Below, piece by piece: positions 1 to 35,707 of a DNA stretch of 63,656 nt; within the stretch, counting starts at the first letter, position 1, and every line of letters begins with the position of its first letter. A model generated the notes under the pieces. That model made no database searches. It was not told where the DNA came from and saw nothing but the letters and a program-made list of their open reading frames with translations. This stretch comes from a virus, in the IMG/VR virus record IMGVR_UViG_3300017771_003653, positions 1-63,656 of that record. One strand, given 5' to 3'. A program made the translations under genes and the position numbers.

Positions 1-243
1 AAATCTTCCTTTTCCTTCCTCAGATAATGTCTGGTTGTAGTAGTTATTTGCTACTGTTAACATTTTATCAATGTTTGCGATAGTTTTCTTTTCTTTAGCT
101 CCTGCACCGATTTGTCCAAATTTTGGTGCGGCTGTTGTAGCAAGTGTTGCCATCATTGCTGTAGTAACTGCGAATTCAGCAAGAGAGTTTCCTTTCGTGC
201 TTTTCATCTTTTTTAAGATCTTTTTTATTATTTTAACGAACAT
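1..243 (-). CDS. Type IV pilin-like protein (3' part outside window)
   Basis: An open frame of 81 codons runs from an ATG at 243 to the window edge with no stop, so the C-terminus is missing. After a short basic leader the sequence KGNSLAEFAVTTAMMATLA matches a class III prepilin signal: Gly at -1, then N-S-L-A-E with Glu at +5, followed by a hydrophobic helix ending in TTAAPKF. This is the layout of type IV pilins and pseudopilins, which are cleaved and N-methylated by PilD and assembled into a fibre on the periplasmic side. The start is supported by AGGAG at 251-255. It stands alone behind a 256-base spacer, downstream of a terminator. The rest of the protein is needed to tell a major pilin from a pseudopilin. 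Confidence 0.75.
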   Translation of the reverse strand, partial: MFVKIIKKILKKMKSTKGNSLAEFAVTTAMMATLATTAAPKFGQIGAGAKEKKTIANIDKMLTVANNYYNQTLSEEGKGRF

Positions 244-285
244 TTTAATGCTCCTTTTGTGTTTTTACTGGTTATTGTAGTGTTC

Positions 286-318
286 CTATAGTATATAGAG
301 AAAAAACCGTGCCAAACC
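286..318 (-). promoter_or_regulatory. Promoter of the pilin-like gene
   Basis: Reading leftwards, TTGGCA (315-310), 16 bases, then TACTAT (293-288) forms a good sigma70-type promoter about 40 bases upstream of the pilin start. The same stretch contains TTGGCACGG followed by TTTTTTCT, which matches the -24 half of a sigma54 promoter exactly and its -12 half with the G of the essential GC replaced. Many bacterial pilA genes use sigma54, so this may be a decayed or borrowed host promoter. The two readings cannot be separated from sequence alone. Confidence 0.5.
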
Positions 319-424: not shown

Positions 425-451
425 CAAAAAAGGCCTCTGAAAAGAGGCCTG
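425..451 (-). terminator. Rho-independent terminator
   Basis: A perfect 8-bp stem (AGGCCTCT / AGAGGCCT, arms 431-438 and 443-450) with a 4-base loop is followed on the minus strand by six T residues (430-425). It closes the leftward unit that ends with the gene at 500-763 and isolates the pilin gene. The rest of 244-499 holds only the pilin promoter and no gene that I can see. Confidence 0.85.
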
Positions 452-766: not shown

Positions 767-1471
767 TTATACCTCACTAAGTTTAAAGTTTTTATTTTGC
801 TCAATAACATCTGTGTCTTTTCCTAACACATAATATCCTCTTCCGCCTCTTCTTGCCTTCTGCATACAGGGATAAGTATATTTGCTATGAGGATTATTTG
901 TAAACACTTTAACTTTGTCTTCAGGGTGAATTAGATTGTCTGATACTGCCTTGCTTATCATTTCAGGATTGCATACTACATTATTATAAGCATCATATCC
1001 AAATGCAATATCACCAATATCACAGTCGTCAACACAGACAACACCTGATTTAATTATGTTGAGCTCATCATGTAATGGCCAATAATCTTGCCAGTGTGCA
1101 TCCAAAAATATAAATGGAAATTTGTAATCTCCTGCATATTGAGCAAGAAACTTTTCACTACTCTGCAAAAATACATTTACGTTATCATATTTTTCTAATC
1201 TTATGTTTGCTACATCAACATACCTCTGTTCTATTTCGCATGTTAGCACGGGAAGGCTTGGAAACATTTTTGCTAAGAACTCAGTTGTGTCACCTGAATT
1301 TGTTCCTGTTTCTAGAATCGCATCACAGTTATAATGATGTATCAAATAGCATGCTTCTAATGCATGGTGTATGTCAAATCCAAATGCACCGCCTCCATCA
1401 CTCATATCCATTCCAAGTCTTGGTGTTGTATAGAAGTTTTTAAATATTTCTAAATTAAGATCGATCTTCAC
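767..1471 (-). CDS. Class I SAM-dependent methyltransferase-like protein
   Basis: The 234-residue protein has a Rossmann methyltransferase motif I at residues 51-61 (AILETGTNSGD), an acidic end to the next strand (VLTCEIEQ), and a FIFLDAHWQDYW segment typical of class I methyltransferases of the Methyltransf_24 kind found in glycan and natural-product clusters. The substrate cannot be told. Its start overlaps the end of the 2OG-oxygenase gene by 17 bases, so the two are likely translated together. A sugar or protein methylation role would suit the glycan genes further right, but that is inference. Confidence 0.7.
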   Translation of the reverse strand: MKIDLNLEIFKNFYTTPRLGMDMSDGGGAFGFDIHHALEACYLIHHYNCDAILETGTNSGDTTEFLAKMFPSLPVLTCEIEQRYVDVANIRLEKYDNVNVFLQSSEKFLAQYAGDYKFPFIFLDAHWQDYWPLHDELNIIKSGVVCVDDCDIGDIAFGYDAYNNVVCNPEMISKAVSDNLIHPEDKVKVFTNNPHSKYTYPCMQKARRGGRGYYVLGKDTDVIEQNKNFKLSEV

Positions 1472-2000
1472 TCATAGCCTCCTCTGTTTTAAATGCAACA
1501 GTATATCTGAATGCATTAGTTCTTATGTTTGGCAAGGCTCTATGATTGAACTTTGCATTAAATTTTATAATTCTGTTAAATACTGGGTACGACACCACCG
1601 ATGTCATATCAAGGGTTTGAAATTCAGTCCCACCACCATCATCGTAGGACCATTCTGGGTTAATATAGATAAGATAAGTTAACGATCCGTCATCTTCGTG
1701 AAAGTCACCATGTTGTCCAAAAGTCTGATAATTTACATATGCTCTTACTATTTTTGATGGGAAGTGTGATCCTATATGTTCTACATCTTTATTGTATTTC
1801 TTTCCTTCAAGCAAGTCTAAGAACCAGAACTGGTTTAGTCCTGTTCCATCGGGTTCTGCAGAAACACCTCTAAATTCAAATTTATCGCTTTTAATTTTAT
1901 TATAAAGTTTTAAGAGCCAGTCAGGATCAAAGAAGCTGTCAATATACTCGACACCATCTATTATGTTTTTCCATCCTCTTTCTGTATCAGGATTCGTCAT
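1455..2000 (-). CDS. 2-oxoglutarate/Fe(II)-dependent dioxygenase
   Basis: The protein is 181 residues, the usual length of a single-domain prolyl-4-hydroxylase-like enzyme. The facial triad is visible: H97 and D99 in QHGDFHEDDG, and H153 in FNHRALP. Arginines at 160 and 165 are candidates for binding 2-oxoglutarate. Between them lies the expected YLIYINPEW strand and a GGGTEF turn. Such oxygenases are common in marine T4-like phages, where substrates are mostly unknown; protein hydroxylation or modification of DNA or sugar are possible. It is followed directly by the methyltransferase-like gene. Confidence 0.82.
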   Translation of the reverse strand: MTNPDTERGWKNIIDGVEYIDSFFDPDWLLKLYNKIKSDKFEFRGVSAEPDGTGLNQFWFLDLLEGKKYNKDVEHIGSHFPSKIVRAYVNYQTFGQHGDFHEDDGSLTYLIYINPEWSYDDGGGTEFQTLDMTSVVSYPVFNRIIKFNAKFNHRALPNIRTNAFRYTVAFKTEEAMSEDRS

Positions 2001-2003
2001 GTT

Positions 2004-2531
2004 CTAATCCATTAAAAATATTGACATTGAATCAATAACTGTTCCGTTTATTGACCACCACAACCACATTGATCGACTAACCATTGATTTAACTGGCGCA
2101 AGTACATTACCAAACTCACCTTCTGAATCTGCAAGTGATACTTGATTTGTGACAGGTGCCATTGTGTGAAAATTGTATGTCATTGGAGATGTTGTGCCAT
2201 CTGAATCATACCAAGTTCCGTTTACACACGTTCTACAGTCTAACTTAAAATATCCTGCTGTATCATCTACAACCCAAAACATATCAGACTGCCATTCAAT
2301 TCTCATGTTCTCTACATCAATATTTTCTGATTCTAGAAGACCGTACATTGTCACTATTGTCTGCCATGTATAATCATTTAGTTCTATTCTTGGAATTGAG
2401 GGCATTATAACTGTTACATTTCCTGTCACATGTTCATGTGACGTCATCCCGGTTCCTACTGGTGATTCACATGCTATGACAAGTAATAATAGTGTGCTAA
2501 CGACGAGGTTTTTTAGGGTGTTGTGTACCAT
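2004..2531 (-). CDS. Predicted lipoprotein, 175 aa
   Basis: The N-terminus is a lipoprotein signal: a short charged region, a hydrophobic stretch and a lipobox V-I-A-C with Cys at 21. The mature part (about 155 residues) has two Cys close together (CRTC) and ends WWSINGTVIDSMSIFLMD, mostly beta-strand-like. No family is recognised. SD AAGGAGA sits 9 bases before the ATG. Its beginning overlaps the end of the upstream 55-residue gene by 35 bases. A phage-borne lipoprotein would be anchored in the host envelope; superinfection exclusion is one known role of such proteins, but here it is only a guess. Confidence 0.75.
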   Translation of the reverse strand: MVHNTLKNLVVSTLLLLVIACESPVGTGMTSHEHVTGNVTVIMPSIPRIELNDYTWQTIVTMYGLLESENIDVENMRIEWQSDMFWVVDDTAGYFKLDCRTCVNGTWYDSDGTTSPMTYNFHTMAPVTNQVSLADSEGEFGNVLAPVKSMVSRSMWLWWSINGTVIDSMSIFLMD

Positions 2532-2664
2532 TCTTTTTGGTCTCCTTCATTTTCTTTGCTTGAGTATGATCTAGTTTTTTCTTCTTATTCTTGAAAGATT
2601 GTTTGTATTCTCTCTCTTCAAGATCTTCGAATTCTTCTATATATTTTTCCCAATGCTGTGCCAT
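2497..2664 (-). CDS. Small basic protein, 55 aa
   Basis: A 55-codon frame starts at 2664 with SD AGGAG and ends at 2497, overlapping the lipoprotein start by 35 bases in another frame. The product begins MAQHWEKYIEEFEDLEERE and turns strongly basic (FKNKKKKLDHTQAKKMKE, ending KKPRR), which suits a nucleic-acid-binding or virion peptide. No family is recognised. It fills what would otherwise be an unexplained gap between the genes at 2004-2531 and 2674-2916. Confidence 0.65.
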   Translation of the reverse strand: MAQHWEKYIEEFEDLEEREYKQSFKNKKKKLDHTQAKKMKETKKNGTQHPKKPRR

Positions 2665-2673
2665 CGTTTACTC

Positions 2674-2916
2674 CTAATTGAATAAAACTTTTAGTTTGTC
2701 TAAGTGATCAAAAAACTCTGTTAATGTGTATTTTGTTCCCATATCTGTAACTATTGTAACATCTTTTAAGTTGATCGGTGAACGTTCGATAATGCGCTCC
2801 AGAGTTTGCATTCCTCTCTCAGCGTAAAATGTACCGAAGCTTTCTCTTCCTAAAATGTTTACATCAAATATGTCCTTTGGATCATCATCAGGGAGTAATA
2901 TATAGAATTCTGCCAT
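2674..2916 (-). CDS. Hypothetical protein, 80 aa
   Basis: The protein begins MAEFYILLPDDDPKD and contains LTEFFDHLDKLKVLF near the end. I recognise no family. It is the first gene after one of four repeated promoter elements. The ATG lies within a few bases of the expected transcription start, and no Shine-Dalgarno is visible, so the mRNA may be leaderless here. Confidence 0.7.
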   Translation of the reverse strand: MAEFYILLPDDDPKDIFDVNILGRESFGTFYAERGMQTLERIIERSPINLKDVTIVTDMGTKYTLTEFFDHLDKLKVLFN

Positions 2917-2961
2917 GTTAGAATCTAATACTCTTTTCCTATTAAAGTAAAGGACTTTTTT
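2917..2961 (-). promoter_or_regulatory. Repeated phage promoter element, copy 1
   Basis: The minus strand reads AAAAAAGTCCTTTAC (2961-2947), an 18-base spacer containing GAAAAG, then TTAGATTCTAAC. The same arrangement occurs at 25175-25220, 31713-31758 and 35347-35392, each time just upstream of a leftward gene. The 15 bases ending in GTCCTTTAC are identical in all four copies. Confidence 0.75.
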
Positions 2962-3085
2962 ATTTTATTTTTATACATCTCATGAATCGTCTAAGTACAC
3001 GTTTGACAATATGTGGATTGCCGCTGTTCCTGTTTACTAATATTAGCGTTTGTGCTCTGACAACGGACTCTTGTAACTCACTCAA
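2960..3085 (-). CDS. Possible small protein, 41 aa
   Basis: An open frame of 41 codons starts at a TTG 4 bases past the nuclease stop, preceded by AAAGGA. The product would be basic at its C-terminus (VKRVLRRFMRCIKIK). It runs up to the edge of the repeated promoter at 2917-2961. The start is weak and there is no homology I can name, so it may be chance. Confidence 0.3.
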   Translation of the reverse strand: MSELQESVVRAQTLILVNRNSGNPHIVKRVLRRFMRCIKIK

Positions 3086-3088
3086 TTC

Positions 3089-3595
3089 CTATTCCTTTGT
3101 TGCTTGTTCCTCCGCAGGCTTATCAACAAGGTCTTCTTTTTTAGCTGCTTTTTCTTTTGCAATCTCTTTTTCAAAGTCTTTCTTTTTTCCACCGTGATAA
3201 TCGTAAGCATGACCTTCCGCTATTAATATGTCATTTATGCTTACTAATCCGTCTTTATTTCTATCAACACTCTCATCGATAACTGCATTTTCTCCAACAG
3301 CGTCAGGACTAACAAATATCTCTCCAAGAACACGACCAAATTTGCCTGTTCCATAAGATACTATTTTGAAAGTTCCTGCCTCTAGAAGCTCTTTGTTTCT
3401 AGCTTTTGCTGCAAGGCCTTTTTTCTTTTCTTCTAAGTCTCTAGTCCGTGATTCCCAGGTATCGATACCCATGTAACGAACTCTTTTCTTTATCTTGAGA
3501 TCGAAACCTAAATCAATGTAACAATCGATTGTGTCTCCATCTAAAACTTTTATTAACTGTGCGTTATATTCAAACGACGCGGGTTTTTGTGGCAT
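3089..3595 (-). CDS. Staphylococcal-nuclease-like (thermonuclease) protein with an EF-hand-like loop
   Basis: This 168-residue protein has the SNase core: DGDT (19-22), RYMGIDTWES with R40, D45, T46 and E48 at the positions of the catalytic and calcium-binding residues, and KFGR with R88. The SNase fold hydrolyses DNA or RNA with calcium. Unusually, residues 111-122 (DRNKDGLVSIND) fit a 12-residue EF-hand/dockerin calcium loop before the usual AEGHAYDY end of the domain. A charged 30-residue tail follows. It has no signal peptide, so it acts in the cytoplasm or virion. Degradation of host nucleic acid is a likely role. Confidence 0.8.
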   Translation of the reverse strand: MPQKPASFEYNAQLIKVLDGDTIDCYIDLGFDLKIKKRVRYMGIDTWESRTRDLEEKKKGLAAKARNKELLEAGTFKIVSYGTGKFGRVLGEIFVSPDAVGENAVIDESVDRNKDGLVSINDILIAEGHAYDYHGGKKKDFEKEIAKEKAAKKEDLVDKPAEEQATKE

Positions 3596-3632
3596 AACTA
3601 TTCTCCGTATTAACCATTCAATATATAAATAT

Positions 3633-4346
3633 CTAAATCCTGTGTTTGAATGTCATATAATGATTCCAGTCCTGTATATTTTCATCTGGCAAGAGCCTTT
3701 CACTATCTAATTTTGGATAGAACGGTGTTCTTAATATTGATCCAGTGAGTGATGTTGCTTCTAACTTGTGAACATACATAAAGTATAAGAAGTTATCGAA
3801 GTCAAACAATCCTCTGTAGATAAACTGATGATTCATTCTCCAGTTAGGATTGCTTACAAATATTACAGAATCTTTATCTGTTAAATTATAAACTGTCTGC
3901 ATGATTATTGTAGGATTCTGAACATGCTCTAAAAAGTCATTCATTATTATAAGATCATATTTTTCTTCAAGTCCATCTGTATCAAATGAATTTGCTAGAT
4001 CTTTTACTATAAACTTACCTTTAAAGTTATGCTTGTCAAAATATTCTTTTGCAAAAGGCTTGTCAATGAGTGTAAATTCTAATTCAGGATTTAGTTTTAA
4101 CACCTCTTGTGATAAGACACCAGGGCCACTTCCAATCTCTAATACTTTTTTTATATTACTATTTTGTGATACTACCGAACTTACTAGTTGTGCTTCATAC
4201 TCGTATCTATTTCCCCATCCTGGCTCTTTCAGCCTGTCAGCTGATGCATCTTTCCACTCATCATGCATGTTAGTATCAAAGTCATCAAATGTAAAGTCCC
4301 TCTCAAATCTCTGAACTTCAGGATTTAGTCTAAAAAGATCTTCCAT
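3633..4346 (-). CDS. Class I SAM-dependent methyltransferase
   Basis: Motif I is clear (VLEIGSGPGVLSQEVL), followed by LIDKPF, LIIMNDFLEHV (motif with Asp and His typical of Methyltransf_11/12) and FVSNPNW. The ATG at 4346 overlaps the upstream stop as TAATG, which I take as the start; a TTG six bases earlier would add two residues. It is the last gene of the glycan island, coupled to the RmlB-like dehydratase, so methylation of a sugar is the best guess. Confidence 0.8.
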   Translation of the reverse strand: MEDLFRLNPEVQRFERDFTFDDFDTNMHDEWKDASADRLKEPGWGNRYEYEAQLVSSVVSQNSNIKKVLEIGSGPGVLSQEVLKLNPELEFTLIDKPFAKEYFDKHNFKGKFIVKDLANSFDTDGLEEKYDLIIMNDFLEHVQNPTIIMQTVYNLTDKDSVIFVSNPNWRMNHQFIYRGLFDFDNFLYFMYVHKLEATSLTGSILRTPFYPKLDSERLLPDENIQDWNHYMTFKHRI

Positions 4347-5296
4347 TACCAAATAAAATTCTGTTTATAAAATTGTACAATTCCCATTATCTCTTTATCA
4401 AACTCCCTCTCAGGTTTCCAGCCAAGCGATCTTAGCTTTGAATCATCAACTGCATATCTCACATCTTGACCCGGTCGTGTGTATTTAAAGTCTACATATT
4501 CATCAGGCTTGACATCTGCTTCCCAGTAGCACTGAATAATTGATGTTATTGTTTTCATATTTTCCTGTTCAAAGCCGCCACAAATATTGTAAATCTGATT
4601 AATTGCTTTGTCACCTGATTCAATTATTGTTGTTATTGCATTTGCAGTATCAGCAGCATGAAGCCAGTTTCTTACAGGTTTTCCTTGTTCGTGTATTGGT
4701 ATTTTTCTTCCCATTGAAAGATACTTACATGTTTTTGGTATTAGCTTTTCAGGATACTGCCATTTTCCGTAATTATTTGTTGGACGAACAATAACATAAG
4801 GTAAACCATAGGTTCTTCCCCAAGCAGTCACCAACTGATCAGCAGCAGCCTTCGTTGCTGAGTATGGATTACTCGGCTTAAGCATGTCATCTTCTTTGTG
4901 CATGCCATCTATAATATCACCATAAACCTCATCTGTGCTGAAATGTAAAAGTGTTGGCATTCTATAGTTTTCTTTTGTTCTGATTAGCTTTAGTAAATTG
5001 TGAACACCACCAACATTTGATTCTACAAACTTATTGGCATCAACTATTGAATTATCAACATGTGTTTCAGCCGCTGTATTAATTACATAATCACAATCAT
5101 ACAACCAGTCTAGTTCGTTGATGTCTTTTTTCTCAAATACAAAGTTCTTATATTCTGAAAACTCGTTTAGTATTTCTGGATGTCCTGCATAAGTGATATT
5201 GTCTACACCTCTTACTTGCCATCCTAGCTCTAAACATGCTTTTGTTACGTGGGAGCCTATAAATCCTAGACATCCTGTTACGTATACTACTTTCAC
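4346..5296 (-). CDS. rfbB: dTDP-glucose 4,6-dehydratase-like enzyme (SDR family)
   Basis: The protein has the extended-SDR NAD site GCLGFIG, then AAETHVDNSI, the STDEVYGD signature with the Thr-Asp-Glu active-site group, YSATK (the Tyr and Lys of the catalytic YxxxK) and NNYGKWQYPEKLIP. These are the marks of RmlB/RfbB, which converts dTDP-glucose to dTDP-4-keto-6-deoxyglucose. At 316 residues it is shorter than the usual 350, so the nucleotide (dTDP or CDP) should be checked. Its start overlaps the end of the RfbH-like gene by 4 bases, which suggests the two act in one pathway. Confidence 0.85.
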   Translation of the reverse strand: MKVVYVTGCLGFIGSHVTKACLELGWQVRGVDNITYAGHPEILNEFSEYKNFVFEKKDINELDWLYDCDYVINTAAETHVDNSIVDANKFVESNVGGVHNLLKLIRTKENYRMPTLLHFSTDEVYGDIIDGMHKEDDMLKPSNPYSATKAAADQLVTAWGRTYGLPYVIVRPTNNYGKWQYPEKLIPKTCKYLSMGRKIPIHEQGKPVRNWLHAADTANAITTIIESGDKAINQIYNICGGFEQENMKTITSIIQCYWEADVKPDEYVDFKYTRPGQDVRYAVDDSKLRSLGWKPEREFDKEIMGIVQFYKQNFIW

Positions 5297-6675
5297 TCCA
5301 TTATCTCCTTTGCAACTTTTTCTATATAGTCATAATGTTCAGGCAAAGCACCTGGCCACACGCCTAAGAAGAAAGTATCGTTTGTAACTTTAGTTGCAAC
5401 TGGAAATGCCTTTTGGACATCTTTGTATTTCTTTCTTAATTCGGCATATGCCGGGTGTAGTAATGCGTTACCTGTAAAATAGCTTCTAGTCTGTATCTTT
5501 GCTTCTTCTAACTTTGCGATCATCTGTGCTTTGTTTACAGGCGAGCTATCTTTAACAGTTATTAAATAACCAAACCAAGACGGGTCTGCTCCTTGCATAG
5601 TTGTTGGTAACATTAAATGTTCTCTATACTTTCCCCATATTTCTGTCTGTCTAAAATAATTAAGCTTTCTTTTTGCATGCATTTCTGGTAACTTCTTAAC
5701 CTGTTCTAAACCCATTGCTGCTTGCATATCAAGTGGCTTTAAGTTGTAGCCCACTTCATCAAACACATAACGATGATCAAAAGTTGCTTGTGATCCTGCA
5801 TCTTTAAACCATTCAGAAAACCTATTTCCGCAAGCAGTTCCTTCAGTAACATTTCCTGGTTTTTGTGTATTGCAGTAACACGCTCTTCCCCAGTCTCTTG
5901 TTGCTGCAAGTGCAATCCTAACTTGATTATCATCTGTTGCAATAAAGCCGCCTTCTCCCATTGACATGTGATGTGCTGGAAAGAAAGAGCACGTTGACAT
6001 TAAGCCAAAACTACCTAGTGGTTTTCCTTTCCAAGTAGATCCTAATGCATCACATGCGTCTTCTAAGAATATTAGATCGTATTTCTTAACAATATCCATA
6101 AGTCTATCCATGTCTGGTGGATTACCGAGAACATGTGCAAATGTGATACCTTTAATTTTAGGATTCTTTTTCTTTCTATCTTTTTCCAAAAGTTTTTCTA
6201 CTTGATCTAAGTTAGGATGAAGATTGGGTAACTCTACATCAACAAAGACAGGCTCAAATCCATTTTGCAACATTGGATTTATTGTTGTAGGAAAACAAAC
6301 AACTGGTGTGATAAACTGATCGCCTCGTTTTAAGTTATATCTACTTTTTAGCCTATTTGATTTTAACACACTCATCATTAATAGATTTGCAGAACTTCCA
6401 GAATTAGTAAGCGATCCGTATTTTTTTCCTAAATGTGGAGCAAACTCTAATTCGAATTCTCTTGCTCTTTCTCCGTATATCAACCATTCATCCATTAGCC
6501 TTCCGACTCCTGCTGAATACTCTTCACCATCAAAGTAAGGCCCTGAATATTGAACCCAGTCTTTTCCTGGTTCCCATGTTTTCATTGCATGCTTTTGATT
6601 TATGTAGCTACGAGTATTTCTTATTATTGATTGCTTCTTTCTTTCAAGTAAATACTCTTTTAATTTAGTTATCAT
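5293..6675 (-). CDS. rfbH: PLP/Fe-S sugar 3-dehydratase of the E1/RfbH type
   Basis: This looks like a DegT/DnrJ/EryC1 aminotransferase, but in SFFPAHHMSMGEGG (230-243) the PLP lysine is replaced by His 235. That is the signature of E1/RfbH and ColD, which use PMP to remove the C3 hydroxyl of a 4-keto-6-deoxyhexose. Cys 208 in EDACDALGS is followed by exactly 57 residues to Cys 266, then C-x-C and Cys 282, matching the [2Fe-2S] ligands of E1. The product would be a 3,6-dideoxyhexose. E1 needs a ferredoxin-type reductase, and none is seen here. The start overlaps the GMD stop (ATGA). The substrate may be CDP-, dTDP- or GDP-linked. Confidence 0.85.
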   Translation of the reverse strand: MITKLKEYLLERKKQSIIRNTRSYINQKHAMKTWEPGKDWVQYSGPYFDGEEYSAGVGRLMDEWLIYGERAREFELEFAPHLGKKYGSLTNSGSSANLLMMSVLKSNRLKSRYNLKRGDQFITPVVCFPTTINPMLQNGFEPVFVDVELPNLHPNLDQVEKLLEKDRKKKNPKIKGITFAHVLGNPPDMDRLMDIVKKYDLIFLEDACDALGSTWKGKPLGSFGLMSTCSFFPAHHMSMGEGGFIATDDNQVRIALAATRDWGRACYCNTQKPGNVTEGTACGNRFSEWFKDAGSQATFDHRYVFDEVGYNLKPLDMQAAMGLEQVKKLPEMHAKRKLNYFRQTEIWGKYREHLMLPTTMQGADPSWFGYLITVKDSSPVNKAQMIAKLEEAKIQTRSYFTGNALLHPAYAELRKKYKDVQKAFPVATKVTNDTFFLGVWPGALPEHYDYIEKVAKEIME

Positions 6676-7649
6676 GCGAATTCTCCATAATATCCTACCC
6701 AGTATTCTATCATTTCATCTAACATTGACTCAAATGTGTATTCTAATTCTAAGCCAAGAACTTTTTTAGCCTTTGATGGGTCACCTTTTAAATGCTCTAA
6801 TTCATCAGGCCTCCAAAACCTTTCATCTACATCAACATACTGTTTCGGATCTAAGTCTAATGAATTAAACACATAGTCTACCAAACCGCCAACTGAATTA
6901 GAAACACCTGTTGCACAGACAAAATCATCTGGTTCATCTTGCTGCAATATCATGTGCATTGCTCTTACATAATCTTTTGCATGACCCCAGTCTCTTGTTG
7001 CATTTAAATTACCAAGTAACAATTTATCAGAAAGGCCGTAGTTAATTAATACTGCTTCTTTTACTACTTTATTTGTAACAAAATTTGTTCCTCTTCTTGG
7101 TGACTCGTGATTAAACAAAATACCATTTGCAGCAAACAAATCATATCCAGCTCTATAGTTCTTCATTAAATTATATGCAAAAACCTTTGCACACCCATAA
7201 GGACTTGCAGGATGCATTGGTGTAGTTTCTCTCTGAAAACCATCTTCATCCATAGAATTACCAAACATTTCTGATGAGGATGCTTGATATATTTTTGCAC
7301 CTGGACATACTAGCCTTACAGATTCTAGTAAATTAAGAACACCCATTCCTACAACATTACCTGTGTAGATTGGCTGATCAAATGATATTCTTACATGTGA
7401 CTGTGCTGCTAAATTGTAAATCTCATCTGGCATAACTTTCTGCAACACACTTATAAGTGATGCCATGTCTGTCATGTCTGCATATTCTAAATTTATTTTA
7501 TCAAAGATATGCTCTATTCTTGCAGTTTGATTTTCTGCTACAGAGTTTCTCTTTAATATTCCGTGTACTTCATATCCTTTTTCTAGCAATAGCTCTGCAA
7601 GGTATGATCCGTCTTGACCGTTAATCCCAGTAATTAGTGCTTTTTTCAT
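6672..7649 (-). CDS. gmd: GDP-mannose 4,6-dehydratase
   Basis: The 325-residue protein is a close match to GMD: ALITGINGQDGSYLAELLL at the N-terminus, SSSEMFG and SPYGCAK (catalytic Ser, Glu, Tyr, Lys), FNHESPRRGTNFVTNK, and NLNATRDWGHAKDYVRAM. It makes GDP-4-keto-6-deoxymannose from GDP-mannose, the precursor of GDP-fucose, GDP-perosamine and GDP-colitose. A GDP-fucose synthase lies in the same operon at 10209. It overlaps the small upstream gene by 4 bases and the RfbH-like gene by 4 bases. Confidence 0.95.
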   Translation of the reverse strand: MKKALITGINGQDGSYLAELLLEKGYEVHGILKRNSVAENQTARIEHIFDKINLEYADMTDMASLISVLQKVMPDEIYNLAAQSHVRISFDQPIYTGNVVGMGVLNLLESVRLVCPGAKIYQASSSEMFGNSMDEDGFQRETTPMHPASPYGCAKVFAYNLMKNYRAGYDLFAANGILFNHESPRRGTNFVTNKVVKEAVLINYGLSDKLLLGNLNATRDWGHAKDYVRAMHMILQQDEPDDFVCATGVSNSVGGLVDYVFNSLDLDPKQYVDVDERFWRPDELEHLKGDPSKAKKVLGLELEYTFESMLDEMIEYWVGYYGEFA

Positions 7650-7783
7650 TTACTCCAACCTCTCTTAAATGGGCTTTTTAAAAAATGTTTAAATCCCTTA
7701 ACAACTTTTGTAAAGAATATATCTTCTTCACCTCTAAAGTTTCCAGCAATATTTGTTGATCTTCTTCTATATTTCTTTGGCAT
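7646..7783 (-). CDS. Small basic protein, 45 aa
   Basis: A 45-codon frame starts at 7783 (SD AGGA at 11 bases) and its TGA overlaps the GMD ATG (ATGA). The product is MPKKYRRRSTNIAG... ending FKRGWSK, very basic. It fills the only gap in this part of the island, and its tight junctions on both sides support translation. The function is unknown. Confidence 0.6.
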   Translation of the reverse strand: MPKKYRRRSTNIAGNFRGEEDIFFTKVVKGFKHFLKSPFKRGWSK

Positions 7784-7792
7784 TTTGTTTTC

Positions 7793-8275
7793 CTATCTTG
7801 ATAAATTAACGTAACTTGGCAATCCATTATACATGAAGTCGCTAAATTGGTCTTTCATTTCTTTGGCATCTTTTGGCCTAAATTTCTCTATGTTTTTAAA
7901 AGAGTTTAGGTGTGTTCTATCATCTATTCCCCAGTGTGAAAAGCCTAACCCACCATAATCTTTGTCCCTACCAGATCCGACTAATTTAACAGGTATTAGC
8001 TCATGATCTAAAAAGTTTCTTAATAATTCAAAAGGTCTAAAAATTACAAACGGTGTTATTGAATAACATACAGCTATCTTTCCATCTAATGCTAATCCTG
8101 TTGCCATTCCTACCATTAATTGTTCTGCTGCTAGTGGATTAATAACTCTGTCTGGATAGTCAATCCTGTGTTGATTGAAATGTCCGTAACCTAAATCTCC
8201 TAGTATCAATATTACATCATCATTCTCAGCCATCTCATCATACATCAATGAACTGAATTCTTTTCTAACACTCAT
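7793..8275 (-). CDS. Transketolase, C-terminal (pyrimidine-binding) half
   Basis: These 160 residues correspond to the Pyr domain of transketolase: ILILGDLGYG near the start, INPLAAEQLMVGMATGLAL carrying the glutamate that activates the thiamine diphosphate, and SHWGIDDRTHLNSF. With the preceding gene, which supplies the diphosphate-binding half, it should form a two-subunit thiamine enzyme. Split transketolases occur in sugar-biosynthesis clusters, where they are thought to move two-carbon units. The two genes overlap by 4 bases. Confidence 0.85.
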   Translation of the reverse strand: MSVRKEFSSLMYDEMAENDDVILILGDLGYGHFNQHRIDYPDRVINPLAAEQLMVGMATGLALDGKIAVCYSITPFVIFRPFELLRNFLDHELIPVKLVGSGRDKDYGGLGFSHWGIDDRTHLNSFKNIEKFRPKDAKEMKDQFSDFMYNGLPSYVNLSR

Positions 8276-8922
8276 AATGACGCCTCCTGTATATCTAGAC
8301 TATGTAATCCTTCTTTGTAGTCTTCTTTACTCATAATATGATAATGTGCATTTATGCCTTTTAAGAATGAGAAGTGATTAACATACGTGTAGTGTATTAT
8401 TATGTCAGGTAAAAATGCTTTAAGTCGCTTTTCTAAATAAGGAACATCAACAGCATCATAAGCTGCAAGTCCATTCATATTGACATGAACTTTTATATTT
8501 CTGATATTGTGCTCGTAAATAAATCTTAAGCTTTCCCATACAGTTCCTTCTGCTGCTTCACCATCGCTTATAAGCACATGAACTGTTCTACTAGTATCAG
8601 CAAGTGCCCTTCCAACAGCAACTGTAATTCCTAATCCTAAACTTCCTGATGAGCAGTAAATTTTATTTTTTTCATCTAGATGAGGATGTCCTCCGTGCTT
8701 ATTAACTAATTCTTGTGCATCAATTCCGTAGTGCTTTTCTATAACAGCATAAAGTGCATAACCTAGATGTCCGCATGATAAGATAAAAATATCATCTTTG
8801 TCCATACTTGTGTGTATGTCATCTATTATTTCTAATCCAGAAAAACAACTTCCTACATGTTCTTCATTGTTTCTATAGTGTAGCTCTAAAAGACGCTTCT
8901 TTAATGTAACTGAGTTTGACAA
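8272..8922 (-). CDS. Transketolase, N-terminal (thiamine diphosphate-binding) half
   Basis: These 216 residues carry the PP domain: CGHLGYALYAV, GGHPHLDEKN, SSGSLGLGITVAVG and the TPP motif SDGEAAEGTVWES followed about 20 residues later by VNMNGL. The first Gly of the usual GDGE is Ser here. A full transketolase is about 650 residues; the third (C-terminal) domain is absent from both halves. The start is TTG at 8922 with AAAGG upstream, because no ATG fits. It is a partner of the gene at 7793-8275. Confidence 0.85.
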   Translation of the reverse strand: MSNSVTLKKRLLELHYRNNEEHVGSCFSGLEIIDDIHTSMDKDDIFILSCGHLGYALYAVIEKHYGIDAQELVNKHGGHPHLDEKNKIYCSSGSLGLGITVAVGRALADTSRTVHVLISDGEAAEGTVWESLRFIYEHNIRNIKVHVNMNGLAAYDAVDVPYLEKRLKAFLPDIIIHYTYVNHFSFLKGINAHYHIMSKEDYKEGLHSLDIQEASL

Positions 8923-8978
8923 TTTAAAAACCTTTATTTTGTTTATATATATCTTTTAAAAATGCGTTATTTAAATTT

Positions 8979-9320
8979 TTATTCGTCTTCAAAACCTTTA
9001 TATAATTTTGGATTCTCTGCAACAGGGTTAAACTTTCCATTGCACATATTAGTAATAATTTTATCGATAGACTTTACTAGCATTGGCCTCTTCTGTTTAA
9101 AAGTAATATCTGCTTTATCTTTTAATTGTTTCATTTTATTACCATCTGTTTCCAATGTCATTGCATCTTCCAGATACCAAAGTCTTATATGTGTTATTAC
9201 TAATTTATCTATTAGTTCTGAAAAAGTATCGCTGTGTATGTTGTCATATTCAGGAAATTTTGTCTGATCTAAAACTTCTTTTACTTTTTCTTGTATGTAT
9301 TTATCTATTCCTGTTCCCAT
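8979..9320 (-). CDS. Hypothetical protein, 113 aa (DUF4254-like)
   Basis: This is a helical protein with FSELIDKLVITHIRLWYLEDAM followed by LKDKADITFKQKRPMLVKSID. The pattern resembles DUF4254 proteins, which are found in glycan gene clusters and have no known activity. The match is by eye and tentative. It overlaps the end of the upstream 303-residue gene by 16 bases and lies inside the glycan island. Confidence 0.65.
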   Translation of the reverse strand: MGTGIDKYIQEKVKEVLDQTKFPEYDNIHSDTFSELIDKLVITHIRLWYLEDAMTLETDGNKMKQLKDKADITFKQKRPMLVKSIDKIITNMCNGKFNPVAENPKLYKGFEDE

Positions 9321-10216
9321 AGTTCCTTCGCTAATTTTTCTGGTTCTGGTGGATTGTATTGCTTATCACCTTTTATTATGTTTAATTTTACATTAGAAAA
9401 GTTTAGACAAGGATGAAAATAAGATGCATCTCTTTCTTCAGGCACATCTGACAGCATACCATTATTATCAATCATACTTAACACTGTTTTACCACTTACA
9501 TTACCAAAAGATTGTACGTAGTGACAAGGACCTGAAATTGTGCTTATAACATGCTTGCAGCTTGGATGATGCACATAACTACAATATTCTTTTAGCGTAT
9601 CTACATACTCAATATTATCACTAATAAGATACTTTGTCTCTTTTCCAAAAACAAATACTCTACTAAAATATTTTTTTGCTATGCTTAAAAAGCGAGTCCA
9701 GTACTCTTTGTCTAAATTCCTTCTAGTGTCAGATCTTTTCAATCTAGGAATGCAAATTAAAAAATCATCTAATTTTTTGTCAAGAATATTTGAATCGTAT
9801 TTTATATTCTGAATTAGTTCTTTGTCTCTTTCATAATTTCCATAAAGAGGTCCTTTACTATTTGTGTAATACGGGAGATCTGCAATATGTTTGTCAAAGT
9901 TAACTGGTGAGATAAAGTCTAGAGCATCTATATCTTTGTGTTGTGTGTCGTAGCCTCTGTCTCCCCAATACTTTTCTTCAAAGTCCACAACAGTATCTAC
10001 TAAGTTCTCATACAAAAACTTTCTCTCTGGGAGTGTCACAACAATAGTTTTCCTATCTAACTTTCCTCTCTGAAGCTTATCGATGAAAGCAAGTCTATTT
10101 ATGATGAGCTCTGTTGCTGCTTCTGTCTGATCAGCAGGAGTTCCTGTTGTAAGTGCACCGTTACCACTATTATAGTTTGTTGTTCCTTTTGAAAGTATTG
10201 CGTATTTTTTAGCCAT
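9305..10216 (-). CDS. Hypothetical protein, possible GT-B-type glycosyltransferase
   Basis: The 303-residue protein sits between GDP-fucose synthase and the transketolase halves. It shows alternating strands and helices, with RVFVFGKETKYLI and CKHVISTISGPCHYVQSFG in the second half, which look like the C-terminal Rossmann domain of a GT-B glycosyltransferase. No catalytic signature is clear enough to assign a family. It overlaps its neighbours by 8 and 16 bases. Confidence 0.6.
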   Translation of the reverse strand: MAKKYAILSKGTTNYNSGNGALTTGTPADQTEAATELIINRLAFIDKLQRGKLDRKTIVVTLPERKFLYENLVDTVVDFEEKYWGDRGYDTQHKDIDALDFISPVNFDKHIADLPYYTNSKGPLYGNYERDKELIQNIKYDSNILDKKLDDFLICIPRLKRSDTRRNLDKEYWTRFLSIAKKYFSRVFVFGKETKYLISDNIEYVDTLKEYCSYVHHPSCKHVISTISGPCHYVQSFGNVSGKTVLSMIDNNGMLSDVPEERDASYFHPCLNFSNVKLNIIKGDKQYNPPEPEKLAKELWEQE

Positions 10217-11129
10217 TTACTCTAAATAGTGTGTCTTTATCTTTTATCCTACTGTAAGTTAGTTTTATTCCTTCTTCTAGCTCAGTAAATTTAAAATCAT
10301 TTAAGATATTGAGCAGCTTAGAAGAATCTACATCTTTTCTAAACTGACCGTCTGGTTTTGTAGAATCATAAGTTATTGATAAGTTCTCTTTGCCAATTGC
10401 TGCCTTTGCAATTGAAGCCATCTCTGCTATTGAATAATTGAAGTTTGGAGCGACATTATAACCACCAAAAATTTTGTTTTCTATAAAATATAGAATTACC
10501 TTTGCTAAGTCAGCACCGTACATAAACTGCCTGAGTGGCTTTCCTGTTCCCCATAATTCTATGCTGTCATCTGATTCGTGAATTTTTTTAATCAGCGCAG
10601 AAACAAAGTGACTGTTGTGCTCTGTGTATTTATCATACTCGCCATAAAGATTGCATGGTATTAAATAAGACCACTTCTTGTCATACTGTTTTGTATAAGA
10701 TTCTATCTGAGATGCTGTACATCTTTTTGCTAAACCATACGTAAAGTTACTTTTTGGAGGTGGACCATTAAACAAATCTTTTTCTGTCATTGGGTAATTT
10801 TCAACAACATCAGGATACACGCATGTACTCAGCATTGTTATTACATTTTCAACATCATATTTGTGACAGAACTTAAGAACATTAGTATTCATTAAGATAT
10901 TTTCTTCTAAATATTCTACAGGATGTTTCATGTTATCAAGTAAACCCCCAACTCTTGCAGCTAAGTGTACAACAACATCAGGATTTGTTTCTTTTACCAT
11001 AAGTTCTGCTTGTCTACAGTCAGCTAAATTATAATCTTTAGATGATAGGTATGATGCGTTTGGTAAAATTTCTCTTAAGTGGCTTCCTACTAATCCGCTA
11101 CCACCTGTTACAACTATCTTTTTATTCAT
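10209..11129 (-). CDS. fcl: GDP-L-fucose synthase (epimerase/reductase)
   Basis: Features of GMER/Fcl: VVTGGSGLVGSH, HLAARVGG, STCVYP, TYGLAK (catalytic Tyr and Lys), IPCNLYGEYD, LWGTGKPLRQFMYGADLA. The enzyme epimerises and reduces GDP-4-keto-6-deoxymannose to GDP-L-fucose, using the GMD product made by the gene at 6672. I start it at 11129, where GGAGAA precedes ATG and the gap to the upstream stop is one base. An ATG 30 bases earlier has no ribosome site. Confidence 0.9.
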   Translation of the reverse strand: MNKKIVVTGGSGLVGSHLREILPNASYLSSKDYNLADCRQAELMVKETNPDVVVHLAARVGGLLDNMKHPVEYLEENILMNTNVLKFCHKYDVENVITMLSTCVYPDVVENYPMTEKDLFNGPPPKSNFTYGLAKRCTASQIESYTKQYDKKWSYLIPCNLYGEYDKYTEHNSHFVSALIKKIHESDDSIELWGTGKPLRQFMYGADLAKVILYFIENKIFGGYNVAPNFNYSIAEMASIAKAAIGKENLSITYDSTKPDGQFRKDVDSSKLLNILNDFKFTELEEGIKLTYSRIKDKDTLFRVNG

Positions 11130-11130
11130 T

Positions 11131-12705
11131 TTATTCTCCAAATAAATAATCATCGACAATTACATAGTCTAGCTCTGTATTGTCTAGGACATGAAGTGCA
11201 TCTTCGATCTTTGTCAAAATAGGATTGCCAAGTATATTAAAAGAAGTATTTAAGATAACTGATACATGTCCTTGATTATCTAATTCTTTTAAGATTTCAT
11301 AGAATCCTTTGTGCTGATCTTCTGTCACTGTTTGCAGACGTGATGTTTTATCGATATGTGTTATTGCACTTAACTCTTCTTCATATTCTGCTTTTACTGT
11401 AGGAGCAAAGCTCATATACTTTGACTCAAATACATTATTAAAATATTTAGAAGCATTTTCTAGTCTTGCAACAGGAGCAAAAGGCCTGTACCATTCTCTA
11501 AATTTGACTTTTGAGTTTAGTGTATCTTTCATGTCAGGAAAAGAAGGGTCACAAATAATACTTCTGTTTCCTAATGCTCTTGGACCTACTTCAGAACAAC
11601 CTGTAACCATGCCTATTAGTTTGCCACTTTTTAAAAGAGAAACTATTTCTGGTGTTTTAATTTTTCTTGCATTTCTTTTAGTAACGTAGTCATCTAATTT
11701 GTTGTAGTCAAGTAATTCCCAGCCATTGTAATGTAGATCTTCAGGGTGTATTTTATTATGAAGTAAAAATTGACCGAGAGCAAGACCACAATCATTTGGA
11801 TTCGGTGGAACATATAATTTTCTTCCTGTGATTGACAATTCTTCATATAATATCTGATTAAACAATACGTTCAGTGCACAACCCCCTACTAATACCACAT
11901 CATGATCTTTGTACTCATCGATTAATGGACTTAAAATATCCATAGCAATTGTTTCAAAAACATACTGAGATGTTGCAGCTAAGTCATAACTATTCATACC
12001 TTCTAGACTGTCAAATGATAAGTCTAATTTAATATCCCTACCAAGTGTTTCTAGTGACATATGTTTATAATAGTCATGCATTGGTTCAACCCAATCTTTT
12101 CTAACTTCACCATAAGCGCATAATCCCATAACTTTTCCTGCATAAACCAACGAATGCGCATCGCTGTCAGGGCCTGGCTTTATTTCTGATATAGGCATTC
12201 CGATGTGTCCGTAAGCAACCCCTAGATTTATAAATTCATATGTTTGAATTGTCTTAATTTTATCATCTTCTGCTAAGTAAGAAGCTGTGTATATTATTTC
12301 ATCAAAATCATTTCCACCTCCGTCTATTGATAATATAATTGCTTTGTCAAAGCCTGACTGGAAATATCCGCTAGCTGCATGTGCTCTATGATGCTCCATT
12401 CTTATAAACTCACATTTTGGAAAATGTTCTGCTATAAAGCTTATATCTTCAGGATTTAATTCATTGTAAATTACAGTTGCAATCTTTTCTTTTGTATTTG
12501 CCTTTATGTACTCGAGGAAAGCACTACGCTCTTCGTCATTGCTTCCCATCTTTGGACCTCTTGCATCCATTTTCTTTTTAAAAGATCCGTAACGCTTGTT
12601 AACAAATCTTTCATACTCTAAAACTTTTATATTGTCATCTTTGTCTATGAAAGTTGCTGCTGCGTCATGTGATCCATAAATACTTAATACTTGCTCTTTA
12701 CTCAT
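11131..12705 (-). CDS. Carbamoyltransferase (NodU/TobZ/CmcH family)
   Basis: The 524-residue protein has both domains of the family: an N-terminal Kae1-like part with SIYGSHDAAATF, MEHHRAHAASGYF and LSIDGGGND, and a YrdC-like C-terminal part with GMVTGCSEVGPRALGNRS and VILNTSFN. Such enzymes use carbamoyl phosphate and ATP to put a carbamoyl group on a hydroxyl, often of a sugar as in Nod factors. Its place between a fucosyltransferase and GDP-fucose synthase suggests a carbamoylated surface glycan. It overlaps the GT10 gene by 8 bases. Confidence 0.9.
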   Translation of the reverse strand: MSKEQVLSIYGSHDAAATFIDKDDNIKVLEYERFVNKRYGSFKKKMDARGPKMGSNDEERSAFLEYIKANTKEKIATVIYNELNPEDISFIAEHFPKCEFIRMEHHRAHAASGYFQSGFDKAIILSIDGGGNDFDEIIYTASYLAEDDKIKTIQTYEFINLGVAYGHIGMPISEIKPGPDSDAHSLVYAGKVMGLCAYGEVRKDWVEPMHDYYKHMSLETLGRDIKLDLSFDSLEGMNSYDLAATSQYVFETIAMDILSPLIDEYKDHDVVLVGGCALNVLFNQILYEELSITGRKLYVPPNPNDCGLALGQFLLHNKIHPEDLHYNGWELLDYNKLDDYVTKRNARKIKTPEIVSLLKSGKLIGMVTGCSEVGPRALGNRSIICDPSFPDMKDTLNSKVKFREWYRPFAPVARLENASKYFNNVFESKYMSFAPTVKAEYEEELSAITHIDKTSRLQTVTEDQHKGFYEILKELDNQGHVSVILNTSFNILGNPILTKIEDALHVLDNTELDYVIVDDYLFGE

Positions 12706-13582
12706 GTTTAAATAGCTCCGGATATTCAGTTTTTATTATATTTTTATAATACCACTCTTCTGGTATTTCATAATCTTTTGCTTTTACAAAGTTGTCTAAC
12801 ATTGCGTCTGTCATATCTTTGTATTTTTCTACTGATAGATTCTTAATAATTTTTTCGACATCATACAGTGGAGGTGTGTTGTTTAATATAATCATTCCGT
12901 CTGTATTGAAATACTCATCAACATTTGGACATCCCCAATAAATTGGTATTGTTCCTGTCAGAAAGGGATCTATTAGTTTTTCTGTAAAATAGTCATTTGT
13001 TCTTATATTTTCTATCACTATTGTGAACATAAAATCTGTAAGTCCTATCTCTTTATATTCTATTGGTGTTGGTGATCCGTTTCCAAAAAGCTCCAATCCT
13101 GCAACGTTGTTCGCAATATCATGTCTCAACATGTGACCTAGTTCTTGTTTTTTATTTGAGTAAATCATTGAAACCAGTCTACGCTTTTCTTTTTCTGCAT
13201 TTTGGTTTTCTTTCTTTATCCATCCGCCACCAAACGGAGTAAACCTTGCCTTATCAGGATATTGCTCTATCAGTGACTTATCATTTGTCATTATTAGATC
13301 TAAATCTTTTACACTATCATGAAATGATTGTGGGATTGTTCCAATTCTCTCGATCAACCATCCAATCTTTATTTCTGAGTTAACAGAGCTTACATTCTCA
13401 GGAGTTATAAGAGAGTCAGTGAATATTGTTATGCCCTCCCAGTCTCTATTTCCTCTGACGTACTTTATGCTTGTTGGTTTTTTAATACTGTTTGGGTGTC
13501 CAGCCATAGAGTAATGACCGTCAGGTGTTTCTAAGTGCCCGAAAGAGGCGTCAATTAAATTAATTGTTACTGGATAGTTCAT
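12698..13582 (-). CDS. GT10 alpha-1,3/1,4-fucosyltransferase-like
   Basis: The C-terminal half has the GT10 donor-site block: FTIVIENI, then YFTEKLIDPFLTGTIPIYWG and the PNVDEYF loop. This Glu-Lys-rich block binds GDP-fucose. The N-terminal half is variable, as expected for the acceptor domain. At 294 residues it is close to bacterial members such as those of Helicobacter without their heptad-repeat tail. It overlaps the GT2-GT11 gene upstream by 23 bases. GDP-fucose can be made by gmd and fcl in the same operon. Confidence 0.85.
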   Translation of the reverse strand: MNYPVTINLIDASFGHLETPDGHYSMAGHPNSIKKPTSIKYVRGNRDWEGITIFTDSLITPENVSSVNSEIKIGWLIERIGTIPQSFHDSVKDLDLIMTNDKSLIEQYPDKARFTPFGGGWIKKENQNAEKEKRRLVSMIYSNKKQELGHMLRHDIANNVAGLELFGNGSPTPIEYKEIGLTDFMFTIVIENIRTNDYFTEKLIDPFLTGTIPIYWGCPNVDEYFNTDGMIILNNTPPLYDVEKIIKNLSVEKYKDMTDAMLDNFVKAKDYEIPEEWYYKNIIKTEYPELFKHE

Positions 13583-15152
13583 CTATTGTTTTCCACTCCT
13601 TTGGAAATAAATCTCTTGTGTTTACTGTGCTTGGCTGTGAGGGACCAAACCACTCATTAGGTATAATGACTTCTTTACCGTCGTTAACGTTTAAGAATGC
13701 ACCCCACCAACTAAATGTTGAATTTGCTATTATGTTGTGATTGCACCAAGTCATTATGTACATATCCATCCAGTCAGTCTCTGCTTCCATATAGTATATG
13801 TCAAATTTACCATCACTCAAATTTTCTTTACACCATCTAATATCATCGCTAAAGCACATAAATCTAACATCTTCTCCAAAGTATTCCATTGCTTCTAAAT
13901 AGTATGATGCTGGAAGAACAGTGTGATAGTCACTCAAATTTACAAAGTCTCCTCTTCTTACATGAAGTGAAACTGTTTTCTTATCAAATAAGTGACCGTA
14001 TGTATTACTCATTGCAACTTTTTCTGCTTCATTTGGTGAAAACAACTTGACAATATCATCTTTGTATTTTTCAAAATATTTGTAAGACTGATAATAACCG
14101 TCTACGTAAATTCTTTTGTTTAAGAATTGTTGTGTATCTATAGGTTCATAATTATACTGCCCCTCTTTAAATAAGAGTGCATCTTCTCCCATCTGCTGTG
14201 TCTCAGGAAGATTTTTAAATATGTTTAATTTATAATTTGTTGGGTGTCCATGCAATGTGCCAATATGAACATAGTCTACTGCAAACTTAGATTTTACGTC
14301 TTTTGCAAAAGAATATGATGCAGCTATTTGAAACATCATGTTTCCAAGACCTCCTGCAAGCTTAGGCACTACTAATCCGTTGTCATCTGCAATCTCTTGG
14401 TAAGGTAACTTTGCTCTGCACTCTGTTTCCATTTCCCAATGATTCTCTTGTGATTGTCTTTCTGCTGTATTACCATCCGCATCTTCCCCGCCATTCCAAA
14501 CATAGCTTGTAAAGTCCAATACACCAATTCTTTCTTTTGGACACATTTCTAAGCAAGGGTATGATGTTGCAAGATCTTCTGCATGATAGTACTCATTTGT
14601 TTTTGTGTACCTTAAGTCTTTATCTTTTATTTTTTCGTACAACCACCACTTAAAAGATCTGAGATGACTTGCTCTCCATAAATCTTGCCTATAAGCATTC
14701 ATTGCATGAACGTTAGGTGGGTAATGTGAATTTTGTGGATGAGCCTGATCTATTCTATCTCCACCTCTCCAGCATACCATTCCTCCGTATGTCATCCAGA
14801 TTTTTTGATTATTGTAAAACTCATTTACTTTTTCTAAAACACCTGCATGCGGCAACCAGTCATCCCCGTCTACAAATAAAAGTATTTCTTCAGGATCATT
14901 AAAAAAGTGTGCTAAGTTTTTAGGTGCAACATTGTAAGGCCTTTTTCTATTAACCTCATTATTTTGAAGTGTCCACTTAGGGTCATCACCTACTAATTTA
15001 TGATATAACTCTTCTGTATTGTCTGTTGATTTGTCATTTATATAGAGTACTTCATAGAACGCATAGTTTTGTTCTTGAATACTTTCTATATTTGTCTGTA
15101 TCCATTTCTCATTATTGTAAGATGGGACTACTATTTTAAATTTATTGTTCAT
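13560..15152 (-). CDS. Fused GT2 glycosyltransferase and GT11 alpha-1,2-fucosyltransferase-like protein
   Basis: Residues 1-250 are a family 2 glycosyltransferase: KIVVPSYNNEKW, YINDKSTDNT and the metal site DGDD at 95-98. Residues 260-530 are a GT11 fucosyltransferase: GGLGNMMFQIA (start of the domain), HVRRGDF near 397-403 which contacts GDP-fucose, and NSTFSWWGAFLN near 477. One polypeptide could therefore add a sugar and cap it with alpha-1,2-fucose. No frameshift is seen between the parts. It overlaps the next gene by 23 bases and the previous one by 11. Confidence 0.9.
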   Translation of the reverse strand: MNNKFKIVVPSYNNEKWIQTNIESIQEQNYAFYEVLYINDKSTDNTEELYHKLVGDDPKWTLQNNEVNRKRPYNVAPKNLAHFFNDPEEILLFVDGDDWLPHAGVLEKVNEFYNNQKIWMTYGGMVCWRGGDRIDQAHPQNSHYPPNVHAMNAYRQDLWRASHLRSFKWWLYEKIKDKDLRYTKTNEYYHAEDLATSYPCLEMCPKERIGVLDFTSYVWNGGEDADGNTAERQSQENHWEMETECRAKLPYQEIADDNGLVVPKLAGGLGNMMFQIAASYSFAKDVKSKFAVDYVHIGTLHGHPTNYKLNIFKNLPETQQMGEDALLFKEGQYNYEPIDTQQFLNKRIYVDGYYQSYKYFEKYKDDIVKLFSPNEAEKVAMSNTYGHLFDKKTVSLHVRRGDFVNLSDYHTVLPASYYLEAMEYFGEDVRFMCFSDDIRWCKENLSDGKFDIYYMEAETDWMDMYIMTWCNHNIIANSTFSWWGAFLNVNDGKEVIIPNEWFGPSQPSTVNTRDLFPKEWKTIDELSSNN

Positions 15153-16131
15153 AATTCCTCATAAAATTTTTAAACCATACATCTTCTGAGTATTCTTTTT
15201 TGTAAAACTCTTTAGCTTTTTCAGAAACGTCATTTCTAAAGTTTTCTTCATCTCTTAATTTTACTGCTAGTTCAACTGCTTTTTCTACATCATCATTTTC
15301 AACTGAAAGATCTGGAAAGCATATTCTTTGTGTATCAACTTTTTGATTTCCTATGCAGGGTATTCCCCAATAAGCACAGTTTAAACTAAATGTTCCTGCT
15401 GCAACTGTTGGCATTAAGTGAACTGCATATTTAAAAGTAGATAATGTTCTCATCCATTCAGTCCAATTCATTCTTGGTAAATGCTCTAACTCTTGTATTC
15501 TTGCCTCATCTTGCATCATTGCATGTGAAGTTTGTGTGTACACTTGATTTCTAAAATGAGATGCTACTGTAAAGCTTTGAAAACCTCCGTACCATCTTGC
15601 AAAATTACCACCAATGATAGTTTTATCTAGCTTTGGTCCATTCATGTCTTCAACATTATCTGTTATCATTAGTGTTCTCATGTCAAAAACTTTCTTACCT
15701 GGAAATAATCCTTTGTAAAATTTAACGTCTGATTTGTTATGAGCAAGTATCATGTCAGTTTGACTTAACTGGTTATAAAAACCGATCTGCTCTTTAATAT
15801 CATAATCATTAAATAGCCAGCAAGGACCTTCTTGCATATAAGCAACTTTTTTATTATTTGACTTTAACATTTTTATAAAATCGTATGTTAAAAAATCACT
15901 TATAGGATTTTGTTGATCTTCATGCATTCTAACACCAACTGCATTTTTAAACACCAGGCCTTTCGGTAATATTACAATTACAAGATCATAATTCTGTATG
16001 CTAGCACCTGCGTCAATTGGATAGTGCTCTGCATCTAATTTGCACATCCATGCAAACTCAGTCCTCATATTATGGTGTTCTCTTCCTACCTTTCCTCTGT
16101 TTGGTAATTCAGATGTAAATGCTATCTTCAA
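15142..16131 (-). CDS. GT-B glycosyltransferase-like protein
   Basis: This is a 329-residue protein with two Rossmann-like halves. The second half carries FKYAVHLMPTVAAGTFSLNCAYWGIPCIGN, the place where GT4/GT1 enzymes bind the nucleotide sugar, followed by a region enriched in Asp and Glu. The N-terminal part reads YDLVIVILPK and NKKVAYMQEGPCW. The family is not certain and the substrate is unknown. It overlaps its neighbours by 4 and 11 bases inside the glycan operon. Confidence 0.7.
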   Translation of the reverse strand: MKIAFTSELPNRGKVGREHHNMRTEFAWMCKLDAEHYPIDAGASIQNYDLVIVILPKGLVFKNAVGVRMHEDQQNPISDFLTYDFIKMLKSNNKKVAYMQEGPCWLFNDYDIKEQIGFYNQLSQTDMILAHNKSDVKFYKGLFPGKKVFDMRTLMITDNVEDMNGPKLDKTIIGGNFARWYGGFQSFTVASHFRNQVYTQTSHAMMQDEARIQELEHLPRMNWTEWMRTLSTFKYAVHLMPTVAAGTFSLNCAYWGIPCIGNQKVDTQRICFPDLSVENDDVEKAVELAVKLRDEENFRNDVSEKAKEFYKKEYSEDVWFKNFMRNYEQ

Positions 16132-35622: not shown

Positions 35623-35625
35623 TAG

Positions 35626-35698: not shown

Positions 35699-35707
35699 AA
35701 ATTTCAA

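Follow-up and report, generated by a model that had tools for sequence, protein, structure and literature searches.

The window analysed here, i.e. the whole stretch of 63,656 nucleotides from a viral record, begins at position 1 with a gene fragment resembling the start of a type IV prepilin. This locus raises the question of whether a phage encodes a real pilin, where such a gene would come from and what it might do to the pili of an infected cell.

A prepilin-like gene at the edge of a phage contig

The fragment (hereafter PIL1; positions 1–243, minus strand) comprises the first 81 codons of a frame that is still open where the contig stops; only these codons are visible, and the 3′ part of the gene, as well as any further pilin genes of this phage, lies off the contig. 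Its translation, MFVKIIKKILKKMKSTKG followed by NSLAEFAVTTAMMATLATTAAPKFGQIGAGAKEKKTIANIDKMLTVANNYYNQTLSEEGKGRF, opens with a basic prepilin leader (190–243, minus strand; predicted cleavage after G18, i.e. G−1). The initial annotation had listed a basic leader, Gly−1, Glu+5 and a hydrophobic helix. The first three held, with P+22 found additionally, while the last held only in part, the helix being Ala/Thr-rich with Asn rather than Phe at +1 and giving no above-cut-off match in Pfam or NCBIfam. PIL1 has its own ribosome-binding site (AAAAGGAG; 251–258, minus strand), and AGGAGAAC-type sites lie upstream of most of its relatives. An intrinsic terminator with an 8-bp stem and a T run (425–450, minus strand; strong hairpin at 431–450, z −4.75) divides the upstream gene from the pilin unit, and because it closes the gene before, PIL1 opens its own transcription unit, as had been claimed.

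A scan of the IMG/VR viral contigs with the 81 residues returned at least 141 relatives, 80 of which were kept at 64–97% identity, complete proteins being 209–235 amino acids in length. Residues K−5, G−1, L+3, A+4, E+5, F+6 and P+22 are invariant across 31 phage PIL1 proteins, and G−1, L+3, E+5, F+6 and P+22 across 49 proteins from phages and their presumed hosts (see below). Codon changes fell mostly on third positions, with dN about 0.01–0.11 against dS about 0.6–2.5 in eight of nine PIL1 pairs, the ninth pair being too similar for judgement. PIL1 is under purifying selection, and its many relatives together with the third-position bias demonstrate that the frame is more than a chance one.

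No member of the PIL1 family matched Pfam or NCBIfam over the cut-off. All have N or Q at +1, and neither the Pfam N_methyl match nor the hydrophobic residue that goes with it is present; position +1 varies among type IV pilins, which limits the N_methyl claim and not the pilin claim. When searched against the PDB, the family profile retrieved mainly type IV pilins (Geobacter pilin, 1.8e−5; MshA, 6.5e−4), these matches covering the N-terminal helix only. PIL1 resembles type IVa pilins whose structures have been solved (Geobacter PilA, MshA and PilA) in its leader, cleavage Gly, E+5, P+22 and alpha-1, but differs from them by Asn/Gln at +1, an Ala/Thr-rich helix and a head without a fold match. 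Modelling of the globular part, as proposed in the initial annotation, was done on the family alignment of phage and host proteins: AlphaFold predicted a 56-residue helix (residues 24–79) and an alpha/beta head with four strands (mean pLDDT 86.5). Foldseek gave no structural match for the head of this good model in the PDB or BFVD, and likewise no meaningful match for an earlier, poor model. The possibility that the gene merely encodes a short membrane protein without a pilin head, which would have refuted the initial reading, is excluded for the family by full-length relatives with a predicted globular head. We have little doubt that the window fragment represents the beginning of a genuine type IV pilin gene, cleavage and filament assembly being inferred.

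The window also encodes a tail sheath (60531–62894, minus strand), which marks the contig as that of a contractile-tailed phage, together with a tape measure protein, a single-strand binding protein, a ribonucleotide reductase and a DNA polymerase. It shows colinearity with G036, a record of 132 kb (sheath 69% and reductase 77% identical), in which the terminase, portal, protease and major head protein are of T4 type; with the sheath in the window and the other T4-type genes in this colinear record, the phage is a T4-like myovirus. Synteny anchors next to PIL1 are the adjoining small conserved phage protein c70 (500–763), common to the relatives L001 and L006, the putative lipoprotein or secreted protein c23 (2004–2531), and c50 and c40 (2674–3595), all on the minus strand. 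The counterpart of c23 (54% identity; G036:120921–121382) lies 2 kb before the PIL1 gene of G036, c40 is 85% identical in the same record, and the order c40-c50-c23-c70-PIL1 recurs in L001. This synteny rules out a chimeric contig end, the second case that would have refuted the initial annotation, and the claim that a T4-like phage carries a gene resembling those of type IV pilins is supported.

Elsewhere in the window, positions 767–19699 are densely packed with glycosyltransferase, methyltransferase, NDP-sugar and 2OG-oxygenase genes (assigned partly by Pfam, mostly by reading), which probably serve glycan modification of the envelope or virion. Positions 35625–35700 share about 85% identity with the tRNA-Ala region of other phages, and G036 contains an open reading frame of 5310 residues (G036:10074–26006).

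Pilin cassettes in related phages

The gene had been described as standing alone, which is true of the visible fragment only and fails for the family. In 60 of the 62 relatives with a visible cassette end, PIL1 is followed directly and on the same strand by one to three canonical prepilin genes (two pilins per cassette in 29 loci, three in 15 and four in 16); the two remaining loci were counted as single-pilin, one of them, L059, being a counting artefact. The downstream pilins have GFTLIELIMV-type N-termini and match Pfam N_methyl at about 1e−8. After the pilins, most loci carry two conserved envelope genes, c2 and then c1, encoding by reading a protein with one membrane helix and a beta-rich domain and a secreted protein respectively. 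This cassette was found in several genomic contexts, that of the window being c40-c50-c23-c70-PIL1. As the colinear G036 has one canonical pilin after PIL1, followed by c2 and c1, the window's phage is likely to have at least one more pilin past the contig edge, although this is inferred and not visible. PIL1 was found in none of 33 large records, possibly incomplete, that were retrieved via the window's DNA polymerase (52–69% identity), and hence the cassette marks a subgroup rather than all relatives.

In one context the cassette is accompanied by further genes, among them c11, for a membrane protein resembling the N-terminus of PilB, and c12, which is thioredoxin-like at a Pfam score short of the cut-off. 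The c11 protein (L062:8797–9429, L029:7866–8543 and 18 other loci) starts with an MshEN/PilB-N-like domain and also has a transmembrane helix and a coiled coil. Also observed were c32 (L041:8688–9335; L026:13422–14072), whose membrane part is POPDC-like and which contains a cyclic-nucleotide-binding domain (Pfam, 4e−15), and the short c80 (L026:12194–12535; L001:12230–12577), which by eye is like the beta domain of MscS-type channels.

A rival explanation is that the phage pilins poison assembly, entering the machine and stopping or weakening the filament, with superinfection exclusion as the outcome, as for the phage inhibitors of PilB. In its favour, inhibition of type IV pili by Pseudomonas phage proteins has been reported (PMC8143254, PMC8764522), and the first 55 residues of c11, present in some phages, resemble the N-terminal (MshEN-like) domain of host PilB (hhalign probability 93.6; BLAST E 0.003). 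However, a single pilin would suffice as a poison, yet two to four are co-conserved with intact heads, G−1, E+5 and P+22, and c11 is missing from many cassette neighbourhoods. Poisoning thus appears unlikely, and filaments are favoured because several co-conserved pilins with intact heads have been retained.

The Candidatus Marinimicrobia pilus operon and the region upstream of PIL1

Pilin genes were to be sought in relatives and in the presumed host, according to the initial annotation, and were found both in the phage relatives and in Candidatus Marinimicrobia (SAR406). The cellular PIL1 relatives obtained in a single scan, which covered 85,000 species genomes, came nearly all from this phylum or from unnamed or oddly binned marine assemblies. 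By reading, the host operon runs PilD-PilB-PilR-PilC-PIL1-pilins-FimT/GspI/GspJ-like (its PilB frames were also picked up by a PilT-family model). The phage cassette shares with it the order PIL1-PIL2-PIL3, a near-identical PIL1 N-terminus and a sigma-54-type site, but is without detected motor, platform, peptidase or regulator genes and adds c2 and c1. For the loci printed, the second pilins of the phages are 44–76% and the third pilins about 40–53% identical to host ones, the best second pilin reaching 76% over 141 residues (full-length); other phages match another host lineage (L097) at 60–66%. A maximum-likelihood tree placed phage PIL1 proteins nested among those of Marinimicrobia, with at least two virus/host label changes forced by supported branches and a long branch (1.13) for the main phage clade.

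On an 8.4-kb contig of one genome classified in the host phylum, the head-region genes are colinear with those of G036 and mostly 50–64% identical to them. One phage contig (L082) sits in an Alphaproteobacteria-labelled bin; binning of phages is unreliable. The major head protein had one match (44% identity) among the 289 genomes searched from the class to which this odd bin belongs and one (61% identity) among 245 from the Marinimicrobia phylum, a weak control that rests on single events per group. We consider Candidatus Marinimicrobia to be the likely host of the pilin-cassette phages, an assignment inferred from sequence alone.

Host genomes encode RpoN (8 of 8), PilT (7 of 8) and PilM (8 of 8). 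Neither RpoN nor PilT was detected in any of six phages, PilM was not detected in the three searched, and PilB, PilC and PilD, sought in three phages, were not found. PilB-like phage matches were rejected, the sole PilB-like stretch belonging to a different ATPase. Since the machinery is undetected in these phages and present in the hosts, processing and assembly of the phage pilins by the host machine is the simplest account. These data also bear on the idea that the phage pilins form a pseudopilus serving protein secretion or DNA uptake, which would supply the infected cell with nucleotides or exported proteins. The FimT/GspH-, GspI- and GspJ-like minor pilins of the host operon (by reading) and a weak match of the GspG model to PIL1 (0.011, in 3 of 31 members) speak for it, whereas PilT and PilM, present in most host genomes, are typical of retractable type IVa pili, and we regard a pseudopilus as improbable.

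The initial annotation had further credited the gene with its own promoter. A sigma-54-type −24/−12 site, TGGCAC-N5-TTTC, is seen in the window (299–314, minus strand), with a perfect −24 and a degenerate −12 element (GC to TC), and was matched by a loose pattern only. It overlaps a weak terminator-like hairpin (309–325) as well as a sigma-70-like reading at 288–315 (9 of 12); the spacing of the family site is incompatible with a sigma-70 reading, which the window taken by itself would permit. Sites of the −24/−12 sigma-54 type were present in 52 of 59 distinct phage upstream regions (0.08 expected) and the textbook TGGCAY-N5-TTGC/T in 30 of 34 regions upstream of host PIL1 (0.17 expected), counts which overstate the number of separate cases since related regions are not independent. 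Phage sites keep the spacing of the host elements, with C to T changes. The phage site is mostly GGTAC-N5-TTGTAC, an imperfect dyad followed by a conserved TATATA, and differs from the host site; it could instead act as an operator or as a promoter specific to the phages.

Other sigma-54-type matches in the examined genomes lay mostly inside genes; of those close to the start of a gene, the main one is found upstream of an Hsp20-like gene (G034:23879, minus strand; G040:65900, plus strand). The T4 late promoter TATAAATA was not enriched in the window.

The upstream region is also relevant to the possibility that PIL1 is a virion or lysis component merely resembling a pilin. Its strong conservation and its location in phage genomes would be compatible with this, but the nearest cellular homologues are bacterial pilus-operon genes, and the PIL1 upstream region lacks the ATATTTAT-like motif that, in an informal comparison, precedes the sheath gene and one tail gene next to it. 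We consider this explanation very unlikely.

Proposed role of the phage pilins

On balance, we lean towards a model in which the phage pilin cassette derives from the pilus operon of the host phylum and its pilins are assembled on the host machine, altering the pili; no expression, assembly or phenotype data are available. In this model, a cassette of type IV prepilins, with PIL1 first, would have been taken from the Candidatus Marinimicrobia operon and would probably be expressed like it; the gene family, the cassette of the relatives and the homology to the host operon are shown, and the presence of the cassette in the window's own phage is inferred. Host RNA polymerase with sigma-54 would transcribe the cassette during infection, probably with a PilR-type activator from the host pilus operon, the promoter-like sites being shown and the use of sigma-54 inferred. 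Once the host prepilin peptidase had cut the leaders, the host PilB/PilC machine would build pili that contain the phage pilins; it is shown that no such machinery was detected in the searched phages and that hosts have it, and assembly is inferred. Replacement or dilution of host pilins would finally alter the pilus surface, an effect that is inferred, as is any benefit.

The most likely benefit would be masking or changing the pilus as the entry point of competing phages (superinfection exclusion), for which purpose there are no test data, and the next most likely would be that adhesion or uptake is kept up for the infected cell. The roles suggested in the initial annotation (attachment, motility, DNA uptake and phage exclusion) similarly remain inference without functional evidence here. 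A bolder reading, which we hold to be somewhat less likely than not, is that one lineage of T4-like Marinimicrobia phages carries its own multi-subunit pilus (a major pilin with as many as three others), driven by a copy of the host sigma-54 pilin promoter, and that infected cells would switch to phage-specified pili.

That few such genes are known in T4-like phages was a fair claim in need of qualification, as single canonical pilins are already annotated in T4-like cyanophages. The cyanophage pilin (phrog_3433; PHROGs category 'moron, auxiliary metabolic gene and host takeover') is, like PIL1, a pilin of T4-like marine myoviruses, of the N_methyl type. It differs in that each of the two records examined has one annotated pilin and no cassette was seen there; no PIL1 relatives were found among 50,697 phage records at E up to 10. 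Tip, Aqs1 and PfsE are Pseudomonas phage inhibitors of type IV pili. They resemble the PIL1 cassette as phage genes acting, in our model, on host pili, but they bind motor or platform proteins, whereas the PIL1-cassette phages encode pilins. The open-access literature that we searched contained no report of pilin cassettes in such phages, and within that scope a multi-pilin phage cassette matching a host pilus operon and sharing its promoter type is probably undescribed.

The cassette is a strong host marker for a widespread group of uncultured marine phages, the probable host of which, SAR406, is abundant and itself uncultured. Where phages are known to affect type IV pili, they do so mostly through inhibitors; a set of pilins apparently wired to host pilin regulation would, if true, represent virus-directed remodelling of a cell-surface machine.
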